Source: an uncultured Aquiluna sp.
Lineage (GTDB): Bacteria; Actinomycetota; Actinomycetes; Actinomycetales; Microbacteriaceae
Assembly (NCBI GenBank): GCA_905182225.1
Contig: CAJJAJ010000010.1
Coordinates: 1 to 64,000, forward strand
Length of the DNA: 64,000 nt
Direction of reading: 5' to 3'
The first letter of the stretch is position 1. Each line of letters opens with the position of its first letter. The translations under genes and the position numbers were made by a program. The notes below the pieces were generated by a model. The model was not told the DNA's origin, searched no databases, and was given only the letters and a program-made list of their open reading frames with translations. This document shows, piece after piece, positions 2,426-54,872 of the stretch.

Positions 2426-4059
2426 GTCAACTAACGGATCAGGCCCAGGCGTGGCTTGATCAGGATCCAGACCCGGTTACAAAGCTCGAGCTTCAAGCAC
2501 TTATCGATAATCACGATGAGGAAGGCCTCGCTTCTCGATTTAGTTCGCGCCTAGACTTCGGAACCGCAGGACTGCGGGGCGAACTAGGGGCTGGCCCGAA
2601 CCGAATGAACAGGGTGGTTGTGGCGCAAACGGCCCTGGGTATTGCTCAGTTTTTGAATGCTAATCGCGAGGCCTACTTGGATCCTTCCGGAGAACTAAGT
2701 GCAGTAATCGGCTATGACGGCAGAACAAACTCAGATGTGTTCGCGCTGGACAGCGCAGAAATATTGAGCGCAGCCGGAATCAAGACCTTTCTATTTTCAG
2801 AAATGGTTCCTACGCCGGTTGCCGCTTTCACCGGCAGGCGGCATGGCGCGAGCCTCACTGTGGTTGTGACGGCAAGCCATAATCCTCCTAGAGATAACGG
2901 CTACAAGGTCTACCTTGGAGGCCCTACCGGGGGCAGCCAGCTTGTTCCGCCGCAGGACAAAGAAATAGCGAATCTAATAGCTGCCATTTCAAATAAAACT
3001 GCTTTTCAAGAGATTCCAAAAAGCAAAGGCTTTACGCTCATCGGGCAACCAGAAATCAACCAGTACCTAGATCGAGCCAAAACACTGATTAGCATGCAAG
3101 AAAGCGAAATTGCCAAAAGGTCAGCAATCCGAATCACACACACCGCCCTGCATGGCGTTGGCTGGAAAGTAGTTAACCCACTAATGGTCGCCGCAGGCTT
3201 CAAGGTTTTACCGGTGAAATTACAAGCAGAGCCGGACCCTAATTTTCCAACCGTGGCCTTTCCGAATCCAGAGGAAAAAGGTGCCATGGATCTGAGTTTC
3301 GCCGAAGCAACCAGCAATGACAGTGACATCATTTTGGCCAATGACCCAGATGCGGACCGGCTTGCAGTAGCAGTTCGCAGTGGTGATGGTTATCAAATGC
3401 TCACCGGAGACCAGGTTGGACTGCTGCTTGCAAATCAGCTTGCTCCAAGCTCAAGGGCAATCGCAAATTCGATAGTGTCGGCTGATTTATCAGCACTTGC
3501 AAAGCACTACGGCGTGCCCTACACCCAGACATTGACAGGCTTCAAGTGGATTTCCAAGGTTCCCGATCTTGGCTATGGATATGAGGAAGCTCTCGGTTAC
3601 TGTGTTGATCCGGAATACACCCCGGATAAGGACGGCATAACAGCGGCCCTAATAATCGCCCAGATGGCATCAGATTTGAAAGCCCAAGGAAAGACACTGG
3701 TTGATCAGATTCAGGATTTGGCCCAGAAATTTGGGCACGTTGCAACCGGTCAGGTTTCACTTAGAGTGTCAGATCTTTCGGTGATTGGAAAAATCACATC
3801 TGGCTTGCGGGCTAACCCACCAGTACGCATTGGAGACGAAGTCGTCCTTTTCGAGGATTACCTAGCCCGAACTGATGCCATGAAAACGGACGCCCTTATT
3901 TTTTCAAGCAAGTCGATCAAGATAATCGTGAGGCCCTCTGGAACCGAACCCAAGCTCAAGTGCTACTTACAGGCTTCCGCGACCAGCAAGCCAGAGGCCG
4001 CAAAGCTTCTTGAGGGCCTGAAGACTTGGGCCGAGGCTACTTTGAGCGCCTTGAAATAA
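2422..4059 (+). CDS. Phospho-sugar mutase, PGM2/PgcA-like alpha-phosphohexomutase family
   Basis: Phosphoserine loop TASHNPPRDNGYKVY, metal loop NDPDADR, C-terminal RPSGTEPK; 4-nt overlap with the upstream PNP gene. Confidence 0.88.
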   Translation: MSQLTDQAQAWLDQDPDPVTKLELQALIDNHDEEGLASRFSSRLDFGTAGLRGELGAGPNRMNRVVVAQTALGIAQFLNANREAYLDPSGELSAVIGYDGRTNSDVFALDSAEILSAAGIKTFLFSEMVPTPVAAFTGRRHGASLTVVVTASHNPPRDNGYKVYLGGPTGGSQLVPPQDKEIANLIAAISNKTAFQEIPKSKGFTLIGQPEINQYLDRAKTLISMQESEIAKRSAIRITHTALHGVGWKVVNPLMVAAGFKVLPVKLQAEPDPNFPTVAFPNPEEKGAMDLSFAEATSNDSDIILANDPDADRLAVAVRSGDGYQMLTGDQVGLLLANQLAPSSRAIANSIVSADLSALAKHYGVPYTQTLTGFKWISKVPDLGYGYEEALGYCVDPEYTPDKDGITAALIIAQMASDLKAQGKTLVDQIQDLAQKFGHVATGQVSLRVSDLSVIGKITSGLRANPPVRIGDEVVLFEDYLARTDAMKTDALIFSSKSIKIIVRPSGTEPKLKCYLQASATSKPEAAKLLEGLKTWAEATLSALK

Positions 4060-4696
4060 ACCTTTGAATGCTTTCCGGAACAGGCAGGGATTCCGACTCT
4101 GGGTCGACGGGTATTGCCTCACCGGCTATTGAAGTAAGTGGGATGGTTCCTGACCAAAAACCTAGGTCCATGTCCTCTGGTGGGTCATCAACTTCGTTAA
4201 CTGAAATCTTTACTGACGCTTCTGCCAGCGACAAGGAAAGAATCAATGTGGCTGCTACTTCTTTTTTGGTGGTTGGTCTCGCCTCGCCAACTCTTCCTGG
4301 AATCATCGCATCACTAACTACGTCTAGAGCGTGATGTTTTTGGTCCATTGGAACCAATTTGGCTTTTCCAAAGATCATGACCGCTCGGTAGTGCATGCCG
4401 CTGTTGAAATTGCTTCTGGCAACCTTCAAGGCATTGAGTTCAGTTATGGAAACGCAGACCTCTGGTTCGGTTTCCAAAATGCGCATCAGCCTTGATCCGG
4501 ATGAGCCGTGAAGGAATATCTCATCTCCGCTCCTGCCATATGCCATCGGAACTACCAGAGGAGAGCCGTCGATGACCACGCCAACATGGGCAACCAGATT
4601 GGCGTCCAAGATGCTATTCAGATCCGAGGTGCTCTCAGAAGATTTGTAGCTCATTCTTTTGAGCTTCGTTCGCTCCGAGGAGCCTGGGGTACTCAT
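4037..4696 (-). CDS. Pyridoxamine 5'-phosphate oxidase-like flavin/split-barrel family protein
   Basis: VAHVGVVIDGSPLVVPMAYGRSGDEIFLHGSSGSR split-barrel pattern; overlaps the 3' end of the mutase gene. Confidence 0.75.
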   Translation of the reverse strand: MSTPGSSERTKLKRMSYKSSESTSDLNSILDANLVAHVGVVIDGSPLVVPMAYGRSGDEIFLHGSSGSRLMRILETEPEVCVSITELNALKVARSNFNSGMHYRAVMIFGKAKLVPMDQKHHALDVVSDAMIPGRVGEARPTTKKEVAATLILSLSLAEASVKISVNEVDDPPEDMDLGFWSGTIPLTSIAGEAIPVDPESESLPVPESIQRFISRRSK

Positions 4697-4705
4697 TCTG
4701 CAAGA

Positions 4706-4978
4706 CTAGCTCAGCGTGGCTTTTAGCTTTTCGCCTAGTTCGCCCAAATCAAAAATGTTATTTATAGCTATTACCTCGGCGGGAATGCCGGCAAGCTGGT
4801 CAAGAATTTCAGGAGTCGCAAGGACCACCTGCGCCATTTCGTCGGCCCCTCGAGCTTCATCTATTGAGACAGCTCGCACCTCCGCTTCGATCCCCAGCAT
4901 TGATAGAGCCCTCTCGGCATTGGACTTCAGTAAAACACTGGTCCCAATCCCCGCTCCACACACTGCATAAATCAACAT
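4706..4978 (-). CDS. PTS EIIB, ascorbate/SgaB-like
   Basis: N-terminal Cys loop MLIYAVCGAGIGTS; start trimmed from the ORF track to MLIYAV. Confidence 0.8.
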   Translation of the reverse strand: MLIYAVCGAGIGTSVLLKSNAERALSMLGIEAEVRAVSIDEARGADEMAQVVLATPEILDQLAGIPAEVIAINNIFDLGELGEKLKATLS

Positions 4979-4985
4979 GGTTTGA

Positions 4986-5432
4986 TTAAAGCGCGTATCT
5001 AAAAAGAATGTCCTCAATGACGCTTAGGGCAGAAGCATTTAACAAGTTGTTCATAACCTGATCGGTGCTCATGAGCTGCCCAAAATCACCCAGCATCTCC
5101 ACATGCTCGCTGGCATTAGGGGAACACATTGAGAAAATAAGACTGACCGGATCATTTGCGGATCCAGATATGACTGGCTCGTCAAGCCTCAAAAGGGCCA
5201 TTCCAGGAGCCAGAACCGAATCGGACGGCTTGGCATGAGCAAGAGCGAGGCCAGGGGCAATAACGAAGTAAGGACCCAAAGTTTTTAGGCTTTCTAAAAC
5301 GTCGTCAACGTAGCTAAGTTTCGTTTTGCCTGATGTGACCAAGAGGGAAACCGATTGCGTCACTGCGGCAACGAAGCTCGGCGAAGTGCCTTGAGTGACT
5401 ATTGAACCTGGACCAAAATAACTACTCAGCAC
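4986..5432 (-). CDS. PTS EIIA, ascorbate/mannitol-type
   Basis: APGLALAHAKPSD with candidate active-site His; probable GTG start overlapping the add stop codon (start uncertain). Confidence 0.78.
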   Translation of the reverse strand: MLSSYFGPGSIVTQGTSPSFVAAVTQSVSLLVTSGKTKLSYVDDVLESLKTLGPYFVIAPGLALAHAKPSDSVLAPGMALLRLDEPVISGSANDPVSLIFSMCSPNASEHVEMLGDFGQLMSTDQVMNNLLNASALSVIEDILFRYAL

Positions 5433-6513
5433 CGTTTGCCTCAGCGAAACCAGCCTCAATCATCTCGATTAGCTCTTCGCGCTCATCGACCGCCTGAAAA
5501 GCCGCCTCGGCGGCATTTAGCTGCAGCTGCTCAAGGTCTGCCAATTTGTAGCCAAAAGTATCGACCAAAATTTGAAGTTCCTTGGTTAGGTTTGTCGAAC
5601 TCATAAGTCGGTTGTCGGTATTGACAGTTACGTTGAATCCGAGGTCATACATGATGTCGATCGGATGATCGGCCATCGTGTCGCCCAAGAGGCTAAAAGC
5701 TCCGGTTTGCAGGTTCGAGGAGGGAGAGACTTCAAGGGCTATTTGTCGATCGTGCACCCATTGAGCAACCGGTCCAAGAACTACTAGGTCGGTATCACCA
5801 TCGGTTCTAGAAAACATGATGTCCTCCACCAGCCGAACTCCGTGACCAATCCTGAGTGCCCTTCCAGAGACAACTGCGTCCTTTATAGACTCAATGCCGC
5901 TGCCTTCTCCCGCGTGAACTGTGCATGGAAATAACTCAGCCGCCAGGTAATCAAATGCCAACTGGTGCTTGGATGGCAAAAAGCCTTCTTCGGCTCCCGC
6001 GATGTCAAAGCCGACGACCCCATCGTTCCGGTGCCGAACTGCAAGCTCCGCGACCTCAAGAGCCCTGTCCGCGTGACGCATCGCAATAATGATCTGCCCA
6101 GTGCGAATGAACCCGCCTTGGTCACCGACTTCCTCCATGCCCCGCTCAAGGCCGTCCTGCACTGCTTCAACCGTTTCATCGAGGCTCAGCCCCATGTTCA
6201 AGTGCTGTTCGGGGGCCCAGCGCAATTCCGCGTAAATTACATTTTCTTTCGCCAAGTCAATGACAGCTTCATAGGCGACCCGCTCCAGCCCGGCTCGAGT
6301 CTGCATAACACCCACGGTGTGCTGAAAAGTTGAGAGGTACCGCTCCAATGAGCCCGAGTCTGCATTTGTTGTAAACCAAGCTGCTAGTTCCAGCGAATCC
6401 GTGGTTGGTAATTCATGCCCAATTTCACCGGCAAGCTCAACGATGGTTTGTGGTCTAAGCCCACCATCTAGATGGTCGTGGAGCGAAATTTTCGGAAGCG
6501 CTGCGATGTCCAT
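5422..6513 (-). CDS. add: Adenosine deaminase
   Basis: LPKISLHDHLDGGLRP, VHAGEG and NTDNRLMS motifs. Confidence 0.93.
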   Translation of the reverse strand: MDIAALPKISLHDHLDGGLRPQTIVELAGEIGHELPTTDSLELAAWFTTNADSGSLERYLSTFQHTVGVMQTRAGLERVAYEAVIDLAKENVIYAELRWAPEQHLNMGLSLDETVEAVQDGLERGMEEVGDQGGFIRTGQIIIAMRHADRALEVAELAVRHRNDGVVGFDIAGAEEGFLPSKHQLAFDYLAAELFPCTVHAGEGSGIESIKDAVVSGRALRIGHGVRLVEDIMFSRTDGDTDLVVLGPVAQWVHDRQIALEVSPSSNLQTGAFSLLGDTMADHPIDIMYDLGFNVTVNTDNRLMSSTNLTKELQILVDTFGYKLADLEQLQLNAAEAAFQAVDEREELIEMIEAGFAEANGAE

Positions 6514-6550
6514 TTATTCCTAACTAACCATGTTCCGTGTTGGCTTCGGT

Positions 6551-7828
6551 CTAATTAACCCGACCAAGAATTAGCTTACGTTCCGCCGGCTTGCTTTCTT
6601 GGAATCCGATTGCTTCTTCGGCAATTGCGATTGCTCGCTCGAACCTTTCTGGGGTATCGGTGTAAAGAGTCATCACGGGTTCTCCAGCTTTCACGTGGTC
6701 GCCAAGCTGAGCATGTAATTCAACACCGGCTCCAAACTGAACCTGATCCTCCTTGCGCTCTCTGCCGGCTCCCAGCCTCCAAGAAGCGACGCCGATTGAC
6801 AGGGCTTCCAACTTCGAAATAAATCCGGACTGGCTGGCTCTGATAACTTGCGAATCGGTGGCCTTTGGCATTTTTGCGTCTGGGTCTCCTCCCTGAGCTG
6901 AAATCATCTTCCGCCAAACATCCAAAGCTTTGCCGTTATTCAGATTCTCGCGAGGGTCCACGTCTGGCATGCCGCTCAGTGAAAGCATCTCCCTTGCCAA
7001 TTCCACCGTTAGCTCCACCACATCGGACGGCCCTCCGCCCGAAAGAACGTCCACCGATTCCTCGACCTCAAGTGAGTTACCAATCTTCCTGCCCAAAGGG
7101 GTGGACATGTCGGTTAGTAGCGCCGACGTGTTAACGCCTGCATCTTTTCCGAGCTGTACCAACACCGTTGCCAATTCGTTTGCTCGGTCAAGGGTCTTCA
7201 TGAACGCGCCGGAACCGACTTTCACATCCAGAACCAATGAAGAGGTGCCTTCGGCAATCTTCTTGCTCATGATTGAAGACGCAATAAGAGGAATTGCCTC
7301 GACTGTTCCCGTGACATCGCGCAAGGAATAAAGTTTGCGATCTGCAGGAGCAAGACCCTGCCCAGCAGCGCAAATGACTGCTCCAACCTCGGCTAGCTGG
7401 CTGTATAACTCTGTGTTGGAAAGACTGGCCTGCCAGCCAGGAATTGCCTCTAGCTTGTCTAGTGTCCCGCCGGTGTGGCCCAGACCACGGCCACTTAGCT
7501 GAGGAACCGCAATGCCGTAGGACGCAACTAGTGGGGCCAGCGGCAAGGTGATCTTGTCTCCCACGCCCCCGGTGGAGTGCTTATCGGCGGTGGGCTGAGT
7601 GAGTCCAGAGAAGTTCAATCGCTCTCCGGAGGCAATCATCGCCATCGTCAGGTCTCTAATTTCATCTCGGCTCATGCCGTTTAACAAAATAGCCATGGCC
7701 ATTGCCGACATTTGCTCGTCCGCCACCACGCCAGAGGTGTAGTTCTCAACCAGCCAATTGATTTCGGCGGTACTAAGCGCACCTTGTTCGCGCTTCTTAA
7801 TAATCAGTTCTACGGCACTAAAGCTCAT
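6551..7828 (-). CDS. deoA: Thymidine (pyrimidine-nucleoside) phosphorylase
   Basis: DKHSTGGVGDK signature; start set at MSFSAVELIIKKR. Confidence 0.93.
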   Translation of the reverse strand: MSFSAVELIIKKREQGALSTAEINWLVENYTSGVVADEQMSAMAMAILLNGMSRDEIRDLTMAMIASGERLNFSGLTQPTADKHSTGGVGDKITLPLAPLVASYGIAVPQLSGRGLGHTGGTLDKLEAIPGWQASLSNTELYSQLAEVGAVICAAGQGLAPADRKLYSLRDVTGTVEAIPLIASSIMSKKIAEGTSSLVLDVKVGSGAFMKTLDRANELATVLVQLGKDAGVNTSALLTDMSTPLGRKIGNSLEVEESVDVLSGGGPSDVVELTVELAREMLSLSGMPDVDPRENLNNGKALDVWRKMISAQGGDPDAKMPKATDSQVIRASQSGFISKLEALSIGVASWRLGAGRERKEDQVQFGAGVELHAQLGDHVKAGEPVMTLYTDTPERFERAIAIAEEAIGFQESKPAERKLILGRVN

Positions 7829-8216
7829 TGCGGTAAAGGTCCTTCGGTCCAAAGGCATCCGGGAGTACCTCGTTGATTGTTTTAATTCCCGAGACAGTTT
7901 GAAGAAGCATCCCCTCGGCACTGTGCTCATAGAGCAACTGCCGACATCTGCCGCAAGGCATCAATGGATTTCCTTGACCGTCGACACAGGCAAATGCCAC
8001 GAGCTGACCGCCTCCGGTGCGAAACAGCTCACTTACAAGCGAGCATTCTGCACAAAGCGCAAGCCCGTAGGACGCATTCTCCACATTGACGCCCGTGATG
8101 ATGCGGCCGTCGTCACAAATCGCAGCCGCGCCCACTGGGAACTTCGAATAAGGTGAATACGATTTTGGAAGCACATCAATGGCTTGTTGGGTTAGGTTCT
8201 CCCAGTCGATTTTCAT
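7818..8216 (-). CDS. cdd: Cytidine deaminase
   Basis: CAECSLV and PCGRCRQ zinc motifs. Confidence 0.93.
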   Translation of the reverse strand: MKIDWENLTQQAIDVLPKSYSPYSKFPVGAAAICDDGRIITGVNVENASYGLALCAECSLVSELFRTGGGQLVAFACVDGQGNPLMPCGRCRQLLYEHSAEGMLLQTVSGIKTINEVLPDAFGPKDLYRNEL

Positions 8217-8219
8217 ACA

Positions 8220-9473
8220 CTAGCCCTTCACGTATGGCACTGCCAGTGCCTTCGGAGGCCTCGATTTACCAACGAAACCGACAACCGCAATGATTGTCAC
8301 TACATAAGGGACCATGGTTATAAAGTCCGTCGGAATTCCCGGACTGACTTGGTTCGCCCATACTCTTAGAATGATCGAGAACCCGAACAAGAGTGCCGCA
8401 AGGGACGCGTAGATTGGGTTCCAGCGACCGAGGATGACAACCGCAAGAGCGATAAATCCAAAGCCTCCAGACATCTCTCGGCCAAAGGCTCCTGCGTTAC
8501 CGATTGTGAGTGCAGCGCCGCCAAGGCCCGCTATTGACCCACCGATAGTTACCCACCAGAATCTGGTTCGCCCCACATTTATACCTACTGTGTCAGCGGC
8601 CAATGGGTGCTCACCAACCGCCCTGGCTCGAAGTCCCAATCTGGTCTTGAATAAAATGAACCAGATCGTCGGCACTATAAGAATGGCGAGGAACACCGTG
8701 ATGCGGTTTTCGAAAAACACGTGTCCCAGTATTGGTATGTCGCTCAATACCGGAATTTTGATTATGTCCATGGTTCCGGGGAAGTTTACGTTCTCGGCAT
8801 CCTCTGTCAACCACTGCTGATACAGGAAGTTAGTAACTCCGATAACCAGAACGTTAAGTACAACGCCAACGATGATCTGCTGCGCCAGGAACTTTATCGA
8901 AAATACCGCCAAGATCATCGAAACTAGGGCGGAGGTGACCATTGCGGCGATTACTCCAAACAGGAAATTATCCGTGATTGATGACACCACTGCCGCCATG
9001 AACGCTCCGGTTAGAAGCTGGCCCTCGATGGCTATGTTCGTTATTCCCACGCGCTCACTCATGATTCCAGCCATCGCCCCAAGAATGATTGGGACCGCCA
9101 AAACCAAAGCCGTGCCGGTGATAAACGCAATTGGAACCGATTTTTCAGCCGCTAGCCAGCCAAGTAGCGCCGTTATTCCAATGGCTCCAAAGACAATCGA
9201 AACCCAGATTGGGGTTTTGAGGTTCTTTATGGCCTTGGAAAGTGAAAATCCTGCTAGCGCGAACATCGCCAATCCGGCAAGGACTCCGAGCAGGCTTGAG
9301 TCGATATCTAACGTCGGCAGCTGAAGGGAATCGTTTCGCCTAGATATCTCAAAAGCGACCATTCCATCGCGTCCCAGAAGCCCTAAAAACACAAGTGTCA
9401 GAAGGCCAATCGAGCCCATTACGATCGGCGACTTGTAGCCAACCTTTACTTCAGTTTCCTTGGAGGTGGTCAT
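8220..9473 (-). CDS. Nucleoside-type ABC transporter permease
   Basis: Hydrophobic BPD_transp_2-like protein (ERVGITNIAIEGQLLTGAF); operonic with the BMP-type importer. Confidence 0.88.
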   Translation of the reverse strand: MTTSKETEVKVGYKSPIVMGSIGLLTLVFLGLLGRDGMVAFEISRRNDSLQLPTLDIDSSLLGVLAGLAMFALAGFSLSKAIKNLKTPIWVSIVFGAIGITALLGWLAAEKSVPIAFITGTALVLAVPIILGAMAGIMSERVGITNIAIEGQLLTGAFMAAVVSSITDNFLFGVIAAMVTSALVSMILAVFSIKFLAQQIIVGVVLNVLVIGVTNFLYQQWLTEDAENVNFPGTMDIIKIPVLSDIPILGHVFFENRITVFLAILIVPTIWFILFKTRLGLRARAVGEHPLAADTVGINVGRTRFWWVTIGGSIAGLGGAALTIGNAGAFGREMSGGFGFIALAVVILGRWNPIYASLAALLFGFSIILRVWANQVSPGIPTDFITMVPYVVTIIAVVGFVGKSRPPKALAVPYVKG

Positions 9474-10705
9474 TTGGAGCCCCCTCCACGTGTGAACATT
9501 CGTTTTCGGATCGATTCGAGGGCGTTAGTCGTCTGTGGCTTAGGCAGTCTAAATAGCGCCCGAATCAGGGGCGGGGCTGCAATGAATAGCACGATTGCTC
9601 CCTGAACGATTCCAAGCACCTCCGGGCTTACTCCGAAAACCTGCATGGATGGCGCGCCGGCCTTGAATGCCCCGAAGAGCAGTCCAGCAAGCAAAATGCC
9701 TGGTCCTGATGATCCGCCGAGCAAAGCGACCGTGATTGCATCAAAGCCGATATTCGCGTGACTAGAAGGAGTGACACCGATTGCAGTTCCCAGAGTCTGG
9801 TTGGCTGCAGCGACGCCGACGAATCCCGCCGAAAGTGCCATTGCCAAGATGTAAGTCTTTTCGACATTTATTCCGGCCGCCCTAGCAGCATCAGGATTAA
9901 AGCCCACCATTCTCAACCGATACCCAATCGTGCTTCGCTCCATTAGCCACCAGAAAACTACAACTGCCAGCAGCGCAAAGATCAGACCCCAGTGCAGCGA
10001 ATAACTGTCTCCAAGCAACTTAGGGAACAGTGCCGTTTCGGCAGCCGGATCCGCTTTTGGGTTGCCGGACGCTCGAGTTTCCTGCAACAGCGCAGGGTCT
10101 CTCATCAAAAATGTGAAGAAATAAAGCGCGATGTAATTCATCATGATCGTCAAGATCACCTCATGTGCACCCGTCCTAGCCTTCAGGAAGCCCACAAATG
10201 CACCCAAAAGTGCAGCGCCGACTATTCCGGCTATAAGAGCAACGACCATGTGCAGCACAAAGGGAAGCTCAAGCCTCGTAGCTACGAATGTCGCGAATAT
10301 CATTCCGAAGATTAGCTGTCCGGTTCCACCAATATTGAATAGGCCCACTCGAAAAGTAAGCCCGATGCCAAGCCCCGCAGCGATAAGCGGTGCACCTAAA
10401 CGTAGAGTCTCGGTCAGTGGTCTGATTGCCTTTTCAAATGTTTCCGCATCGGCGTTATAAATAGCGCCTCGGAAAAGTGCCCCGTAGCCATCATTCACAA
10501 CAGCAAAGGCGGCGCCCAGTGCGTCGCCAGGCCGGGCAAATATGTATCCGAGGGACTCAATGAACTCCTTGTTTGAGCCAATCATGAATAACGCCCCGAC
10601 CAAGAAACCCAGCAAGATCGAGATCACCGTTCGGACCAAGCCACCCGAGAAAATTTCACGCATTACCTGCGGCATCGTGTTGTCAGCCTTATTGATTTCA
10701 CTCAT
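9470..10705 (-). CDS. Nucleoside-type ABC transporter permease
   Basis: GLTFRVGLFNIGGTGQLIFG permease motif; 4-nt overlaps with both neighbours. Confidence 0.88.
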   Translation of the reverse strand: MSEINKADNTMPQVMREIFSGGLVRTVISILLGFLVGALFMIGSNKEFIESLGYIFARPGDALGAAFAVVNDGYGALFRGAIYNADAETFEKAIRPLTETLRLGAPLIAAGLGIGLTFRVGLFNIGGTGQLIFGMIFATFVATRLELPFVLHMVVALIAGIVGAALLGAFVGFLKARTGAHEVILTIMMNYIALYFFTFLMRDPALLQETRASGNPKADPAAETALFPKLLGDSYSLHWGLIFALLAVVVFWWLMERSTIGYRLRMVGFNPDAARAAGINVEKTYILAMALSAGFVGVAAANQTLGTAIGVTPSSHANIGFDAITVALLGGSSGPGILLAGLLFGAFKAGAPSMQVFGVSPEVLGIVQGAIVLFIAAPPLIRALFRLPKPQTTNALESIRKRMFTRGGGSK

Positions 10706-12207
10706 GCGGTCACTCCAGCCATTAGCTTGCCGAGATCTTCTCTCGAAGTATTCGGTTCTACAATTCCAACTATTTTGCCGCGATACATCACTGCAATTCG
10801 ATCTGCCAGCGCCAAGACTTCATCGAGTTCTGAAGAAATCAAAATCACGGCCTTACCCGCATCTCGCTCAGCAATTATTTGCTCGTGAATGAACTCAATA
10901 GAGCCCACGTCCACTCCTCGAGTTGGCTGAGATGCGATCAAGAGACTGACCTCTCTGGACAACTCTCTGGCAACAACGACTTTTTGCTGGTTACCGCCGG
11001 ACAGCTTGTTAGCAACTGTTTCTGAAGATGGAGTTCGGACATCGAACTGCTCTACCAGCTCCTTAGCAATGAGCTTGCGGGCTGCAAAGTTTATGTTCAG
11101 GCCCTTAGTGAACCTTGACTTATAGGAGGAGTTCAACATTAGATTTTCAGCAATCGTAAACTCGGAAACCAAGCCATCGCTCTGGCGGTCTTCAGGAATA
11201 AACCCGACGCCACTCTCCAGCACTTCGCGCACGGACTTGTTTGTTATTTCCTTGCCGTTTAGGTTCACCTTGGCTTTTGACCCCATGGGCTTCCTCAACC
11301 CAAGCAGGAATTCGGCCAGTTCGGTTTGACCGTTGCCTTGGACTCCGGCAAGGGCCAGAATCTCTCCGCCTCGAACCTCAAAGCTCACTTCATTCACAGC
11401 CTTTTGCGATCGATCATCTAAGACGGTTATGTGCTCAACTTCTAGGACCACATCTCCCATAGCTGCTGGCTTCTTGTTGACAGTCAGCATTACTTCGCGA
11501 CCGACCATCAGCGATGCAAGTTCCGAGGTTGCGGCATCGGGCTTAGCCGAGCCAACAACCTTACCCAGCCGAATAACAGTGATTCGGTCTGCCACAGCTT
11601 TTACTTCGCGAAGCTTGTGAGTGATAAAAACAATTGAGGTGCCGCTTTTGGCAAGTTGGCGCATGATCTCCATGAGCTCGTCGGTCTCCTGAGGAGTAAG
11701 TACTGCTGTCGGCTCGTCCAGCACGAGGATCCTGGCATCTCTTGAAAGCGCCTTGATAATTTCAACTCGCTGCTGGGCTCCGACCGGAAGGTCCTCGATT
11801 AGAGCGTCCGGGTCAATGTTGAACCCAAAGCGCTCAGAAATCTCTAAAACTTGTTTTTTTGCTTCAGCTATGTCAATTACCCCAAGGGCTTTAGTCGGCT
11901 CGTGGCCGAGGGCAACGTTCTCCGCAACAGTAAAGACGGGGATGAGCATGAAGTGCTGATGGACCATTCCGATTCCGGCCGCCATCGCGTCGCCTGGTCC
12001 GGAGAAGTTCTGCCTAACTCCATCGATTTCTATGTGGCCCTCGTCGGCGGTGTATAGGCCGTAGAGGACGTTCATCAGCGTGGACTTGCCGGCACCATTT
12101 TCGCCAAGCAGGGCATGAATCTCGCCGGGCTCAATGACTAGATCGATATCTTCGTTTGCGGTAACTGCGCCAAAGCGCTTCGTGATTCCGCGTAGTTCAA
12201 GTTTCAA
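10702..12207 (-). CDS. Nucleoside-type ABC transporter ATP-binding protein with two ABC domains
   Basis: GENGAGKSTLMN Walker A; second domain signature LSGGNQQK. Confidence 0.92.
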   Translation of the reverse strand: MKLELRGITKRFGAVTANEDIDLVIEPGEIHALLGENGAGKSTLMNVLYGLYTADEGHIEIDGVRQNFSGPGDAMAAGIGMVHQHFMLIPVFTVAENVALGHEPTKALGVIDIAEAKKQVLEISERFGFNIDPDALIEDLPVGAQQRVEIIKALSRDARILVLDEPTAVLTPQETDELMEIMRQLAKSGTSIVFITHKLREVKAVADRITVIRLGKVVGSAKPDAATSELASLMVGREVMLTVNKKPAAMGDVVLEVEHITVLDDRSQKAVNEVSFEVRGGEILALAGVQGNGQTELAEFLLGLRKPMGSKAKVNLNGKEITNKSVREVLESGVGFIPEDRQSDGLVSEFTIAENLMLNSSYKSRFTKGLNINFAARKLIAKELVEQFDVRTPSSETVANKLSGGNQQKVVVARELSREVSLLIASQPTRGVDVGSIEFIHEQIIAERDAGKAVILISSELDEVLALADRIAVMYRGKIVGIVEPNTSREDLGKLMAGVTA

Positions 12208-12295: not shown

Positions 12296-13387
12296 CTAGC
12301 TCTTTGGATCGATTTCACCGGAGTTGATTCCGGCTTCAATCTCCACTAGTCGTGCCTTTACTTCGTCAGAAAGCTTGGAGTCGAAGTCGTAGAACGGGCT
12401 TAGGCCAGTTCCGCCATTCGCAAGAGTTCCAACATATGCCTCACCGTCGAATGCTCCACCAGCTGAAAGCTCAGCAATGATGTCGTATACGGCGTTGGTC
12501 ATGCGCTTCTCAGCTGAAGTAAGAACGAATGGTGCGTACTCTGGGCTGGTCAGTGCAACGTCCTTGTCAACACCAATCATTACGCCATCGATGCCGGCTT
12601 CCTTGATCGCTTCGGATGAAGCACCGAACTGGTCGCCACCAACTGGGAACAATACGTCAGCACCCTCGTTGATAAGAGCAGCAGCAATTGATTTTGAAGT
12701 TCCAGAGTTTGGAACGAAGTCACCGATGAACTGACCGGTTTGAGCCATTGGGTCCCAGCCGACGACAGTCACAGGGACGCCGTTTTCGTTAGCCCAGGCC
12801 ATTGCGCCGTAGTAGTAACCGTCCATGAAGTCAGTAACTGCTGGGATCTGAACTCCACCGTAAGTTCCAACAACCTTGGTTGTCGAGTATGCAGCTGCTG
12901 CATATCCTGCAAGGTAAGAAGACTCAGCCATGTTGTATATAACTGGCTTTAGGTTTGCGTTGCCCTCTGACCATCCATCGATGGTTACGAAGCTCATGGT
13001 TGGGTTAGCAGCTGCGATTGCGTTAGCATCGGCCACCAAGTTGAAGCCCACTGCGAATGTGATATCGCAGCTCTGGTCAACCATTGCTTGCAAGTTTGGA
13101 GCGAAGTCCTCGGCAGAGTTTGACTCAGCGTCGGCAATCTGTGATCCAAGGTCTGCTTCAGCCTTCTCTAGGCCGTCATACACAGACTCGTTGAATGACT
13201 TGTCGTTCCAGCTACCCTCATCCGAAACTGCACAGGCCAAGTAGTCAAGGGCTGGTGCTGCTTCTTCTGTCGCGGTAGCGGCAACTGTCTCGGTTGGCTC
13301 GGCCTCTGGGGCGGCAGCACAGCCTGACAGCACTAGTGCTGAAACGCCCATTAGAGCGAAAACAGCGGATGAATTACGTAGCTTCAA
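12296..13387 (-). CDS. BMP family lipoprotein, nucleoside-type substrate-binding protein
   Basis: Lipobox LVLSGC; DEGSWNDKSFNESVYDGL BMP/PnrA motif; SD aggagg before a TTG start. Confidence 0.92.
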   Translation of the reverse strand: MKLRNSSAVFALMGVSALVLSGCAAAPEAEPTETVAATATEEAAPALDYLACAVSDEGSWNDKSFNESVYDGLEKAEADLGSQIADAESNSAEDFAPNLQAMVDQSCDITFAVGFNLVADANAIAAANPTMSFVTIDGWSEGNANLKPVIYNMAESSYLAGYAAAAYSTTKVVGTYGGVQIPAVTDFMDGYYYGAMAWANENGVPVTVVGWDPMAQTGQFIGDFVPNSGTSKSIAAALINEGADVLFPVGGDQFGASSEAIKEAGIDGVMIGVDKDVALTSPEYAPFVLTSAEKRMTNAVYDIIAELSAGGAFDGEAYVGTLANGGTGLSPFYDFDSKLSDEVKARLVEIEAGINSGEIDPKS

Positions 13388-49817: not shown

Positions 49818-51449
49818 TTACTTTGCTGAGATTGCAGCAAGGGCCGCTAAGGCCGCAGATTTTGCTTGATCGGCGTCAAGGCCCGTGAGCGCTGCCTCAA
49901 AAACTTCTTTGGCCTGTTGCTTTGTCACGGAGCTCAGAGCCTGTCTGACTATTCCCACCTGAGAACGAGACGAAGACACTGACTGGAACCCCATGCCGGC
50001 AAGAACTACGCCGAAGGCTGGATCCGAGGCGCTCTCACCGCAAACGCCCGAAGAAACTCCAGCTTCTTGGCAGACAATCGCAATTTGCTCCAGCGATCTC
50101 AATAGCGCCGGTTGCCATGGATTTAACATCGCCCCTAGGGCAGGATTCATGCGGTCGGCCGCAAATAGGTATTGTGATAAATCGTTGGTGCCCACCGAGA
50201 TAAAGTCCAAGACACCAGCTAGTTGTGCAATCTGATAGACGATGCTCGGCGTTTCCACCATGATTCCGACCTTGAACTTTCCGGCTTCCCTGGCAAGCGC
50301 GGCGAACTCAATCGCCTCGGAGTAAGTCGAAACCATCGGGGCCATCACCCAAACTTCGCGGCCCGATTGCTCTCTTGCGATTTCGAGGCTTTCCAGTTGA
50401 TCAACAATAAAGTCTCGGTGATTCTCAATCAGGCGATATCCGCGGACGCCCAGTGCCGGATTTTCTTCGTCACCCATGTCCAAAAACGGAACAGGCTTGT
50501 CGCTACCGGCATCGATGGTGCGGACAACAATTGGCCCGGCTGGAGCCGCCTTCAAAATCTCTGTGTAGCTAGCGGCCTGAGACTGCTTAGTCGGCCGGGT
50601 CTTGGCAGACAAATAAAGTAGCTCAGTTCTAAAGAGCCCCACCCCTTCAGCCGCCGAGGCACTGGCCGCAATCGCGTCTTCCAGCGAACCAATATTTGCG
50701 CGAACCGGAATGATCGGATCCTCGCTTTTTGCGATGAAAGATAGAGCTTCGGTGATGTCACTTTCCTGGCCATCCACCACAACGCGATCCCCCACCGGGT
50801 CAACTAGGACCTGCATCCCGTCAACCAAGTCTTTGGCCTGCTGACATGAAACAACCGCTGGGATCGATTTTGATCTGCAGATGATTGCAGTGTGTGAGGT
50901 CGGGCCGCCCTGGATGGTTACCACCCCGACAACCGCCTCAGTGAATTGCGCGGTATCAGCCGGTGAGAAATCCTCACCCACAATCACGAACCTTCCAGTG
51001 GTAGGAATATCCAGTCCAAGTGAAATGCCCGCGATCGAGGCGGCAACTCTTCTGGCAAGGTCGCGAATATCGTTTAGGCGCTCCTCAAAAGTAGCGTCTC
51101 CTGCAAAAATATCGGCGTATTCTTCAACCGCGTTAATAAAAGCGGTGCCGGCATTCCAGCCATGCGAGATCTGATCCGATGCAGTTTCGAATAGCTCTTC
51201 ATCTTCCAGCAGCATGATCAGGGCCTCGAAAATTTCAGCGGAGGTCTCGCCTGCCTTTTCGGCTAGGCCATTCATCTCCAGTGAAACTGCCGCGATGGCA
51301 GTCTTCAGGCTTTCTGTTTCCAGAGCTTTGTCACCGGAGTGCTTAGCCGCATTTGGCAATGAAGCTACAGGCTTTACTCGAAATACTTCGGCGGCGACGG
51401 AGCCCAGCCCCACGCCCATGCCTGTAAGAATTGTGCCGCTGTCTAGCAA
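49818..51449 (-). CDS. ptsI: PTS Enzyme I
   Basis: GGPTSHTAIICRS phospho-His motif; FRTELLYL; PEP-utilising C-terminal domain. Confidence 0.95.
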   Translation of the reverse strand: MLDSGTILTGMGVGLGSVAAEVFRVKPVASLPNAAKHSGDKALETESLKTAIAAVSLEMNGLAEKAGETSAEIFEALIMLLEDEELFETASDQISHGWNAGTAFINAVEEYADIFAGDATFEERLNDIRDLARRVAASIAGISLGLDIPTTGRFVIVGEDFSPADTAQFTEAVVGVVTIQGGPTSHTAIICRSKSIPAVVSCQQAKDLVDGMQVLVDPVGDRVVVDGQESDITEALSFIAKSEDPIIPVRANIGSLEDAIAASASAAEGVGLFRTELLYLSAKTRPTKQSQAASYTEILKAAPAGPIVVRTIDAGSDKPVPFLDMGDEENPALGVRGYRLIENHRDFIVDQLESLEIAREQSGREVWVMAPMVSTYSEAIEFAALAREAGKFKVGIMVETPSIVYQIAQLAGVLDFISVGTNDLSQYLFAADRMNPALGAMLNPWQPALLRSLEQIAIVCQEAGVSSGVCGESASDPAFGVVLAGMGFQSVSSSRSQVGIVRQALSSVTKQQAKEVFEAALTGLDADQAKSAALAALAAISAK

Positions 51450-51451
51450 AT

Positions 51452-51721
51452 CTAGCCCTTCAAAAAATCTTGAACCTGGGCGATTAGGGCAGTGGCTTCA
51501 GCCTCGTCATCAGAGTCAACTTCTATGGTCAACTCTTCACCCGTCTTAGCCTTTAGGGCCATCATGCGAAGCGGCGAGTTTGCTTTAGCTAACTCCTGAC
51601 CAGCCTTGCCAATTCGAACCTCTAGGCCTGACTCCTTTACTAGCTTCACTATCTGTCCAGCGGGCCTGGCGTGCAGGCCAATCGGATCCAATACGGTAAC
51701 TGAGCCATTTATTGTGGCCAT
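51452..51721 (-). CDS. ptsH: PTS phosphocarrier HPr
   Basis: IGLHARPAGQIVKL phospho-His motif. Confidence 0.94.
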   Translation of the reverse strand: MATINGSVTVLDPIGLHARPAGQIVKLVKESGLEVRIGKAGQELAKANSPLRMMALKAKTGEELTIEVDSDDEAEATALIAQVQDFLKG

Positions 51722-53012: not shown

Positions 53013-53444
53013 CTAGTCGTTGCCAAGAAGCAGCTGAGCAATTTCCTCGGGGTTGTCCGAGTTTTGCAAAATTGCCAACTTGTCCTCGTCTTGAATCATT
53101 TCGGCCAAATTGCCGAGCAGCTCCACGTGTCCATCACCCTTCGAGGCGATACCAAGAATGCAAGTAACTTCATCATCGGCCCACTCAATTGGCTGTGCCA
53201 ATCGAATAAACACCAGCTGATCGAAAATAACGTGCGCACGTGATTCGTCAGTTCCATGCGGAATGGCAAAGCCCATGCCGATGGCGGAAGGAAAGATCTC
53301 TTCTCGCTCCCACATCGCGTCTGCATAGTCGCTTGTTGCCGCGCCTAGCTTAACTAGTAGCTTGCCGCAGATGTCCACAGCCTCCTCCGGAGAGGAGGCT
53401 GTGGCATCTAGCTTTATTCCGGCCTGTTGGACTAAATCAGTCAT
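53013..53444 (-). CDS. PTS mannitol-type EIIA
   Basis: AIGMGFAIPHGTDESRAH active-site His motif. Confidence 0.92.
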   Translation of the reverse strand: MTDLVQQAGIKLDATASSPEEAVDICGKLLVKLGAATSDYADAMWEREEIFPSAIGMGFAIPHGTDESRAHVIFDQLVFIRLAQPIEWADDEVTCILGIASKGDGHVELLGNLAEMIQDEDKLAILQNSDNPEEIAQLLLGND

Positions 53445-53751
53445 CGCTGATGTCGTCGCCCGACTTTATTCTTGACACGACCTCAGCGATTTTTAGATCG
53501 CCCAGAAACATGTCAAACATGATCACCACAGAGTTCGGCACCGCTTGTTTGGCCCTTGAGCCAAGTCCGCGGTGACAAAGAACTAAATCGTGTTCAGTTT
53601 CAGTCAGTTGGTTCACAGGGGAATGGGTCACTGAGACCTCTTGGGCCTTCAGTTGCTTAGCAAGCTGCTTCGCAACCATTACAGATGAGCCCATTCCGGC
53701 CTCGCAAGCAACAACTATGTTCTTGACAGAGGCACCCGATATAGTCGCCAT
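53437..53751 (-). CDS. PTS mannitol-type EIIB
   Basis: NIVVACEAGMGSSVM Cys loop. Confidence 0.92.
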   Translation of the reverse strand: MATISGASVKNIVVACEAGMGSSVMVAKQLAKQLKAQEVSVTHSPVNQLTETEHDLVLCHRGLGSRAKQAVPNSVVIMFDMFLGDLKIAEVVSRIKSGDDISDD

Positions 53752-53753
53752 AA

Positions 53754-54872
53754 TTACGCAGCATCTCCGGTCTTCATGGCCTGACTCTTTGCCTTCGAGG
53801 CGTCTAGATCTGCAGCATCATCTCCGGAGCCAGTTGCCTTCAAGATGAAGAAGGCCACAACGAAGGAAACAGCTGCTGACAACGCAATGCCCAAAAGCAC
53901 GCCGAAGTGGTTACCCGGAGGGGTCATCGCCATGTAAGCGAAGATCGATCCTGGTGATGGGGTGGCAACAAGGCCGACTCCAGTAGCCGCGAAAGTAGCA
54001 ACACCAGTTGCACCACCGGCAATCGCTGCAAGAACAACGATTGGCTTAAGTAGTACGTATGGGAAGTAAATCTCGTGGATTCCACCAAGGAAGTGGATAA
54101 CAATTGCACCTGGAGCTGAACCGCGAAGAATCTTCGGTCCTGCCAGCCAGAATGCAACTAGTAGGCCAAGTCCTGGACCTGGGTTTGACTCAAGCATGAA
54201 CATGATTGACTTGCCAGTTTCTTCGGCTTCAACTGCTCCGATTGGAGCCAGAACACCGAAGTTGATGGCGTTGTTCAAGAACAGGATCTTTGCTGGCTCA
54301 ATCAAGATTGAGGCCAAAGGCAAGAAGCCTGTGTCAACTAGAACCTTCACACCGCCTCCAAGCACATCGGAGAACGCGTTTACGGTTGGTCCGATTCCTA
54401 GGAATCCAAGGATTGCCATGAGCATTCCGGTGATTCCTAGCGAGAAGTTACCAATCAACATCTCGAAGCCGGTTGGGGTTACTGGGTCTAGCACGGCGTC
54501 AATCTTCTTCAATACCCATGCAGCCAATGGACCAATAAGCATGGCGCCAAGGAACATAGGAATTGAAGTTCCAACAATCACACCAACGGTTGCAACGGCA
54601 CCGATAACGGCACCACGCTGACCGTGAACCAAACGTCCACCAGTGTAACCGATGAGGATTGGCAATAGGTTGATGATCATTGGGCCAACCATTGAACTTA
54701 GCTCTTCATTTGGGAGCCAGCCGGTTGGGATGAACAGTGCAGTCAGTAAGCCCCAGGCGATAAATGCGCCAATGTTTGGGATTACCATGCCGGCGAGGTT
54801 GCCACCGACTTTTTGAACAAACGACTTCCAGCCTGTGTGAGTGCCGTCACCCGCGGGGATGAAATTAGCCAT
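53754..54872 (-). CDS. mtlA: PTS mannitol-type EIIC
   Basis: Polytopic; GGIHEIYFPYVLLKP; adjacent EIIB, EIIA and mtlD. Confidence 0.92.
   Translation of the reverse strand: MANFIPAGDGTHTGWKSFVQKVGGNLAGMVIPNIGAFIAWGLLTALFIPTGWLPNEELSSMVGPMIINLLPILIGYTGGRLVHGQRGAVIGAVATVGVIVGTSIPMFLGAMLIGPLAAWVLKKIDAVLDPVTPTGFEMLIGNFSLGITGMLMAILGFLGIGPTVNAFSDVLGGGVKVLVDTGFLPLASILIEPAKILFLNNAINFGVLAPIGAVEAEETGKSIMFMLESNPGPGLGLLVAFWLAGPKILRGSAPGAIVIHFLGGIHEIYFPYVLLKPIVVLAAIAGGATGVATFAATGVGLVATPSPGSIFAYMAMTPPGNHFGVLLGIALSAAVSFVVAFFILKATGSGDDAADLDASKAKSQAMKTGDAA

Follow-up and report, generated by a model that had tools for sequence, protein, structure and literature searches.

The window analysed here, a 64,000-nucleotide stretch of DNA from an uncultured Aquiluna sp., carries on its minus strand a nucleoside uptake and salvage operon followed by two genes for PTS proteins, an EIIA and an EIIB (Table 1). 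EIIA and EIIB proteins normally relay phosphate to an EIIC sugar carrier. The coordinates and strand of the pair agree with those of a first-pass annotation, and Pfam and NCBIfam matches likewise support the operon content that it had described, with the pair lying behind add, deoA, cdd and a complete BMP-type ABC importer. EIIA begins with a GTG at position 5432, within the 3′ end of add, and its stop codon occupies 4986-4988; after a gap of 7 nt EIIB begins with an ATG at 4978, its stop ending at 4706. The open reading frame of deoA overlaps cdd, so the true start of deoA is probably downstream of 7930. A pyridoxamine-oxidase-like gene (4037-4696; PF12900, weak NimABCDEF match) stands 9 nt behind EIIB in Aquiluna and near relatives, an arrangement not shared by most of the Microbacteriaceae.

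Table 1. Genes of the nucleoside operon and PTS genes in the window
Feature	Positions	Strand	Profile match and remarks
EIIB, orphan, ascorbate/UlaB class, 90 aa	4706..4978	-	PF02302 (PTS_IIB) 7.8e-13; phospho-Cys is residue 7 (CGAGIGTS)
EIIA, orphan, ascorbate/UlaC class, 148 aa	4986..5432	-	PF00359 (PTS_EIIA_2) 5.8e-20; phospho-His66 (LALAHAKP), second His110 (SEHVEML)
add, adenosine deaminase	5422..6513	-	NF006847 4e-156, above cut-off; invariable neighbour of EIIA
deoA, thymidine/pyrimidine-nucleoside phosphorylase	6551..7930	-	NF004490 1.6e-184
cdd, cytidine deaminase	7818..8216	-	PF00383 4e-16
ABC permease 2, BMP-type importer	8220..9473	-	PF02653 (BPD_transp_2) 2.4e-36
ABC permease 1, BMP-type importer	9470..10705	-	PF02653 (BPD_transp_2) 8.8e-44
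ABC ATPase, BMP-type importer	10702..12207	-	PF00005 8.8e-49
BMP-type substrate-binding lipoprotein	12296..13387	-	PF02608 4.4e-41; nucleoside specificity suggested by the operon
ptsI, Enzyme I	49818..51449	-	PF02896, PF00391 and PF05524, all over cut-off; putative phosphate source of the relay
ptsH, HPr (His in GLHARPA)	51452..51721	-	PF00381 5.4e-19; putative donor to EIIA
Mannitol EIIA, EIIB, EIIC	53013..54872	-	PF00359 3.5e-29, PF02302 3.1e-11, PF02378 2.3e-17

The nearest NCBIfam models were the ascorbate IIA and cryptic-mannitol IIA equivalogs for EIIA and the ascorbate IIBC/IIB models for EIIB, all far below cut-off, and no PtsN model was among the NCBIfam matches listed for EIIA. The closest solved chains were an IIA of the cryptic-mannitol/RmpA type (IIA-Asc/Mtl-like) for EIIA, with PtsN much weaker, and a chain annotated RmpB for EIIB. 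Aquiluna and other Microbacteriaceae MAGs provided the nearest named relatives.

Profile matches bore out the earlier statement that the mannitol EIIC, with its own A and B parts, is the only EIIC in the window. The genome has one ordinary Enzyme I (EI) match, and in the window HPr adjoins EI. Outside the window, contig C32 of the same genome encodes a complete sorbitol-type EII (PF03608 EIIC2, split EIIBC and its own EIIA), a separate superfamily from the orphan pair and supplied with A and B parts of its own. Beside this system (locus L245, G000 contig C32, 6000-18527, at 5449-8890) are a GutM-like gene and what is probably a SorC-type regulator, and pyruvate-dehydrogenase-like E1/E2 genes adjoin it.

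Linkage to add and the missing EIIC

At least 103 of the 200 Microbacteriaceae genomes sampled have the pair immediately behind add, never with an adjacent EIIC, and a profile search of the family detected EIIB in 59 of 85 genera. At 73 of 74 loci (a few of which share one genome) the first conserved EIIA residue is encoded no more than 130 nt from the add stop, on the same strand. EIIA/EIIB genes stood behind add in 32 of 40 fetched loci (17-19 kb; L064 has EIIB only), where the gene order is (BMP, ATPase, permeases, cdd, deoA) add-EIIA-EIIB and converges on pmm-punA. In 80 further EIIB-positive genomes in which add was mapped, both genes lay beside it in 68, EIIB only in five, EIIA only in one and neither in six, all six of these last possessing EIIC-GAT. 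A scan of GTDB species supplied 80 named loci: 23 were linked to add and without EIIC, 55 were not linked to add and had an EIIC, and two had neither, one of them at a contig end and the other being L199. A true EIIC-linked pair is accompanied by an add-linked pair in the same genome (L099-L101).

At L049, L130, L131 and L135 the locus has no importer genes and yet the pair is still beside add, which points to add, and not the importer, as the fixed neighbour; conversely, importer operons without the pair were found at L105, L111, L113, L116 and L120. A divergent BMP-type lipoprotein gene lies immediately before add at L130, L131, L135 and L203, where deoA, cdd, the ABC permeases and the ATPase are not at the locus. 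No Add-EIIA gene fusion was found among the loci, and the idea of using one as proof of contact was dropped. EIIA-EIIB fusions are confined to EIIC-linked systems of other groups, a fused reading frame occurring in EIIC-linked ascorbate-type systems at L093, L097, L098, L156, L183, L195 and others (e.g. Corynebacterium, Nocardia, Streptomyces).

A UlaA-type EIIC elsewhere in the genome, which the earlier annotation had marked as worth a search, did not come to light: PF03611 (EIIC-GAT), whose profile matches UlaA-type proteins, had no match in the genome's own 1.09-Mb assembly (38 contigs, 90.7% complete). Across the family PF03611 was present in 24 of the 200 genomes and EIIB in 138, of which 115, complete genomes among them, were without PF03611. 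A tblastn search of all loci using four UlaA proteins found no EIIC in the add-linked loci, ruling out one hidden inside the nucleoside operon, and recovered an EIIC at every non-add pair, both in Microbacteriaceae and in other families of the order. Given enough flanking sequence, all pairs away from add thus have an adjacent EIIC and add-linked pairs never do.

In a tree of concatenated EIIA and EIIB the add-linked pairs formed two clades, a mainstream one of 27 and a small-genome one of eight that includes the window, both nested within a background of EIIC-linked pairs of ascorbate type from the family and the wider order. A single origin was not rejected (AU p 0.47), its branch being short of full support, and two separate recruitments to the add locus were set aside on this result. 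When the EIIB profile was run on 396 genomes of the order, no add-linked pair occurred among the fetched loci of other families. This suggests a Microbacteriaceae innovation that would have arisen through loss of the EIIC.

Co-occurrence with Enzyme I, phosphosites and selection

The EI profile PF05524 matched in 179 of the 200 genomes, and EIIB was present in 138 of these and in none of the 21 EI-negative genomes (Fisher p 1.3e-12, uncorrected for kinship), nor did any of the 21 give a strong EIIA match. The EI-negative genomes are spread over 15 genera, several of which also have EI-positive members, and 16 of them retain add, none with EIIA or EIIB at it. A departure is G585, an incomplete MAG in which the pair is present and an EI match absent. 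The co-loss with EI supports a dependence on phosphorylation and, by co-occurrence, the view that the pair would depend on EI.

Among EI-positive genomes, about 24 keep add with neither EIIA nor EIIB detected beside it, and about 12 without EIIB keep EIIA beside add. Six genomes have EIIB beside add and lack EIIA; EIIB was seen directly behind add without EIIA at L064 and in genera g16, g68 and g72. From these EIIA-only and EIIB-only lineages it follows that neither protein is indispensable.

EIIA His66 was conserved in 65 of 65 sequences and His110 in 64 of them, the exception being an EIIA-only lineage, whilst EIIB Cys7 was found in 56 of 56 homologues and the Cys in every pair. All 35 pairs retain the second EIIA His, which fits a working EIIA-to-EIIB step; this residue is involved in handing phosphate to EIIB, a use that it lacks in PtsN (2026 PTS-Ntr review, PMC13104625). 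Against close Aquiluna relatives dN/dS was 0.04-0.06 for EIIB and 0.13-0.23 for EIIA, and the dN of EIIA was about 2.5 times that of add. Two earlier claims stood up here, namely that phospho-His and phospho-Cys are retained, their loss in orthologues having been looked for and the residues proving invariant in the alignments, and that the pair does not look like decay, given these sites and dN/dS values of 0.04-0.23. On these alignments the pair is under purifying selection with its predicted phosphorylatable sites intact.

If the pair were a fossil, left over from an ascorbate operon in decay and kept where it is only by accident of gene order, the faster evolution of EIIA than of its neighbours and the repeated loss of the pair would be in keeping with this. 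Such a remnant would not, however, be expected to show phosphosites invariant in all aligned sequences, low dN/dS, a conserved coupling to add, EIIB in so many genera and a loss that is non-random and goes with EI, and we find this reading scarcely credible; decay of the pair itself was ruled out by the invariant sites and the low dN/dS.

A proposed relay without a permease and its possible targets

Several relatives have no detectable EIIC. G017, a complete genome in one contig, has EI and the pair and no PF03611, PF02378, mannose- or sorbitol-type EIIC; it also has several DhaK paralogues at several places in the genome, so that EI there may also serve dihydroxyacetone kinase. The six MAGs G584 and G589-G593, which may be incomplete, have EI, HPr with an intact His and the pair, and a search of them that covered PF02378, mannose- and sorbitol-type EIICs and DhaK found none of these. 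In G136 (99% complete) EIIA stands alone, with EI present and EIIC, DhaK and HPr undetected. One chimeric query served for the mannose-type, sorbitol-type, DhaK and HPr searches, and control genomes returned positive hits with it.

Wherever the MAG sequence extends far enough, EI is found by itself directly after sdhB, with neither HPr nor an EIIC adjoining, and in small-genome relatives (L203-L205, L207, L208, L211 and others) a lone EI lies between the sdh genes and xthA-trpS; if one contig carries both this EI and the add locus, the two are 10-20 kb apart (e.g. L203, L211). In the two EIIC-less MAGs inspected for HPr (L237, L238), its gene is flanked by polA and rpsA, a long way from EI.

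These genomes bear on whether the pair might still work in transport, phosphorylating a sugar via an EIIC at another place in the genome that went unrecognised or is non-cognate. It is true that all homologues away from add adjoin a real EIIC, and that the Aquiluna genome holds both mannitol and sorbitol EIICs, but those two systems are equipped with their own A and B, PF03611 is missing in most EIIB-positive genomes, complete ones included, and no EIIC could be detected in the complete G017 or in several MAGs. In the EIIA-only and EIIB-only lineages, moreover, a transport role makes no sense, whereas a regulatory device could survive. We therefore hold continued transport to be improbable. 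For the streamlined freshwater and marine relatives we tentatively suggest, with rather less than even confidence, that the whole remaining PTS (EI, HPr, EIIA, EIIB) may be permease-less and may serve solely to signal to the salvage of purine nucleosides, through a relay whose last step is EIIB~P, phosphorylated on cysteine; this would be a Gram-positive counterpart of PTS-Ntr, independently evolved from an ascorbate transporter.

Comparison of the genomes shows a conserved, EIIC-less EIIA/EIIB pair that is coupled to add and, to judge from its distribution, EI-dependent. It seems to us reasonably likely that, in Microbacteriaceae, a PTS branch of the ascorbate class was left without its permease and turned into an EI-HPr-EIIA-EIIB relay whose target lies in nucleoside salvage, Add or its pathway being the most likely one. 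EIIA and EIIB would have been kept as a soluble relay in which phosphate passes from PEP to EI, HPr, EIIA (on His) and EIIB (on Cys), the phosphorylation state reflecting PEP supply against the phosphate drawn by imported PTS sugars, here mannitol and sorbitol. Made together with adenosine deaminase, the pair would most likely bind Add or a neighbouring step of nucleoside salvage, the phosphorylation state of EIIA and/or EIIB would modulate the activity of this partner, and nucleoside carbon and nitrogen would presumably be used when PTS sugars are scarce. Rather than moving sugar, the pair probably informs nucleoside metabolism of the state of sugar uptake. Of the first-pass proposal of a phosphorelay sensing PTS flux to tune nucleoside import or catabolism, the phosphorelay is upheld by the absence of both genes from the EI-negative genomes, whilst flux sensing and tuning are still read from gene order.

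Add is the favoured target, since the pair stays with add at the loci that lack the importer and EIIA stays after EIIB is lost, and we would put it slightly short of an even chance; a target other than Add or the importer is a serious possibility. Against Add, the mirror-tree analysis gave no special signal of co-evolution of EIIA or EIIB with it (partial r 0.08 and 0.04). The chief rival to Add is the ABC importer, whose ATPase or permeases the same relay might control by inducer exclusion or by activation of nucleoside uptake. The importer is usually in the same operon, and the action of EIIA-Glc on MalK is a precedent. Another comes from Rhizobium, where PTS-Ntr inactivates ABC transporters post-translationally (PMC3665714). 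The separate occurrence of pair and importer at the loci listed above nevertheless speaks against such a target, as does the lack of co-variation of the pair with permeases or ATPase in the mirror-tree analysis, and we judge importer control unlikely.

DhaM carries PTS phosphate to dihydroxyacetone. The relay might similarly end in catalysis, with EIIB~P phosphorylating a soluble metabolite in nucleoside or pentose breakdown, and the retention of the EIIB Cys and of the second EIIA His (for its role see PMC13104625) suggests that phosphate is meant to pass beyond EIIA. The locus, however, has no DhaK-like substrate-binding partner, and EIIA-only lineages keep the linkage to add without an EIIB, which makes a catalytic end point quite doubtful compared with the regulatory relay that we prefer.

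Comparison with known PTS relays

Regulatory EIIC-less PTS relays are mainly known from Proteobacteria and end at EIIA. The proposed add-linked relay is actinobacterial, keeps an EIIB and is conserved across most of the large family Microbacteriaceae, whose members live in soil and water, and it points to a link of sugar PTS flux with nucleoside use. 'PTS sugar transporter subunit IIA/IIB' annotations at the add locus are accordingly not to be taken as sugar uptake, and EIIA, EIIB and add are a clear genetic target in cultivable Microbacteriaceae. A literature search, mostly outside subscription journals, found no published account of an add-EIIA-EIIB locus, only precedents (PTS-Ntr, Brucella).

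EIIA-Glc (Crr) is a PTS EIIA through which sugar flux acts on non-PTS transport or on catabolic enzymes (MalK, LacY, GlpK); unlike the orphan EIIA it has another fold and is part of a complete glucose PTS. DhaKLM also uses PTS phosphate without an EIIC, but ends in catalysis on DhaK, and no DhaK lies near the add-linked locus. Brucella melitensis and other alphaproteobacteria have EI, an HPr-like protein and EIIAs without a PTS permease, an incomplete PTS thought to be purely regulatory (PMC2937029); it comprises PtsN and a mannose-family EIIA with no EIIB, and differs from the add-linked pair in phylum and gene context.

With PTS-Asc (UlaA/UlaB/UlaC, SgaTBA) the pair shares a homologous ascorbate-class EIIA and EIIB. 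It differs in that UlaA is absent, the pair does not lie at an ascorbate locus and EIIA or EIIB may stand alone; by descent it is a PTS-Asc without UlaA. PTS-Ntr (ptsP/ptsO/ptsN, Proteobacteria) is likewise a soluble PEP-fed relay without a permease and with an EIIA of the PF00359 fold; neither it nor the add-linked loci, none of which has an EIIC beside it, include a dedicated membrane component. PTS-Ntr regulates by protein contact, ABC transport included (PMC3665714, PMC13104625), and the pair may play a comparable role. The EIIA of PTS-Ntr is nevertheless of the PtsN type, with the second His unused and no EIIB to follow, whereas the ascorbate-class EIIA described here keeps that His and has a Cys-EIIB as the next acceptor; PTS-Ntr also has a dedicated EI-Ntr/NPr and ptsN-rpoN linkage, in place of which the pair has the ordinary EI/HPr and linkage to add. 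The add-linked pair is thus a system that would work like PTS-Ntr and is not a member of it, differing in EIIA class, EIIB, linkage and phylum.
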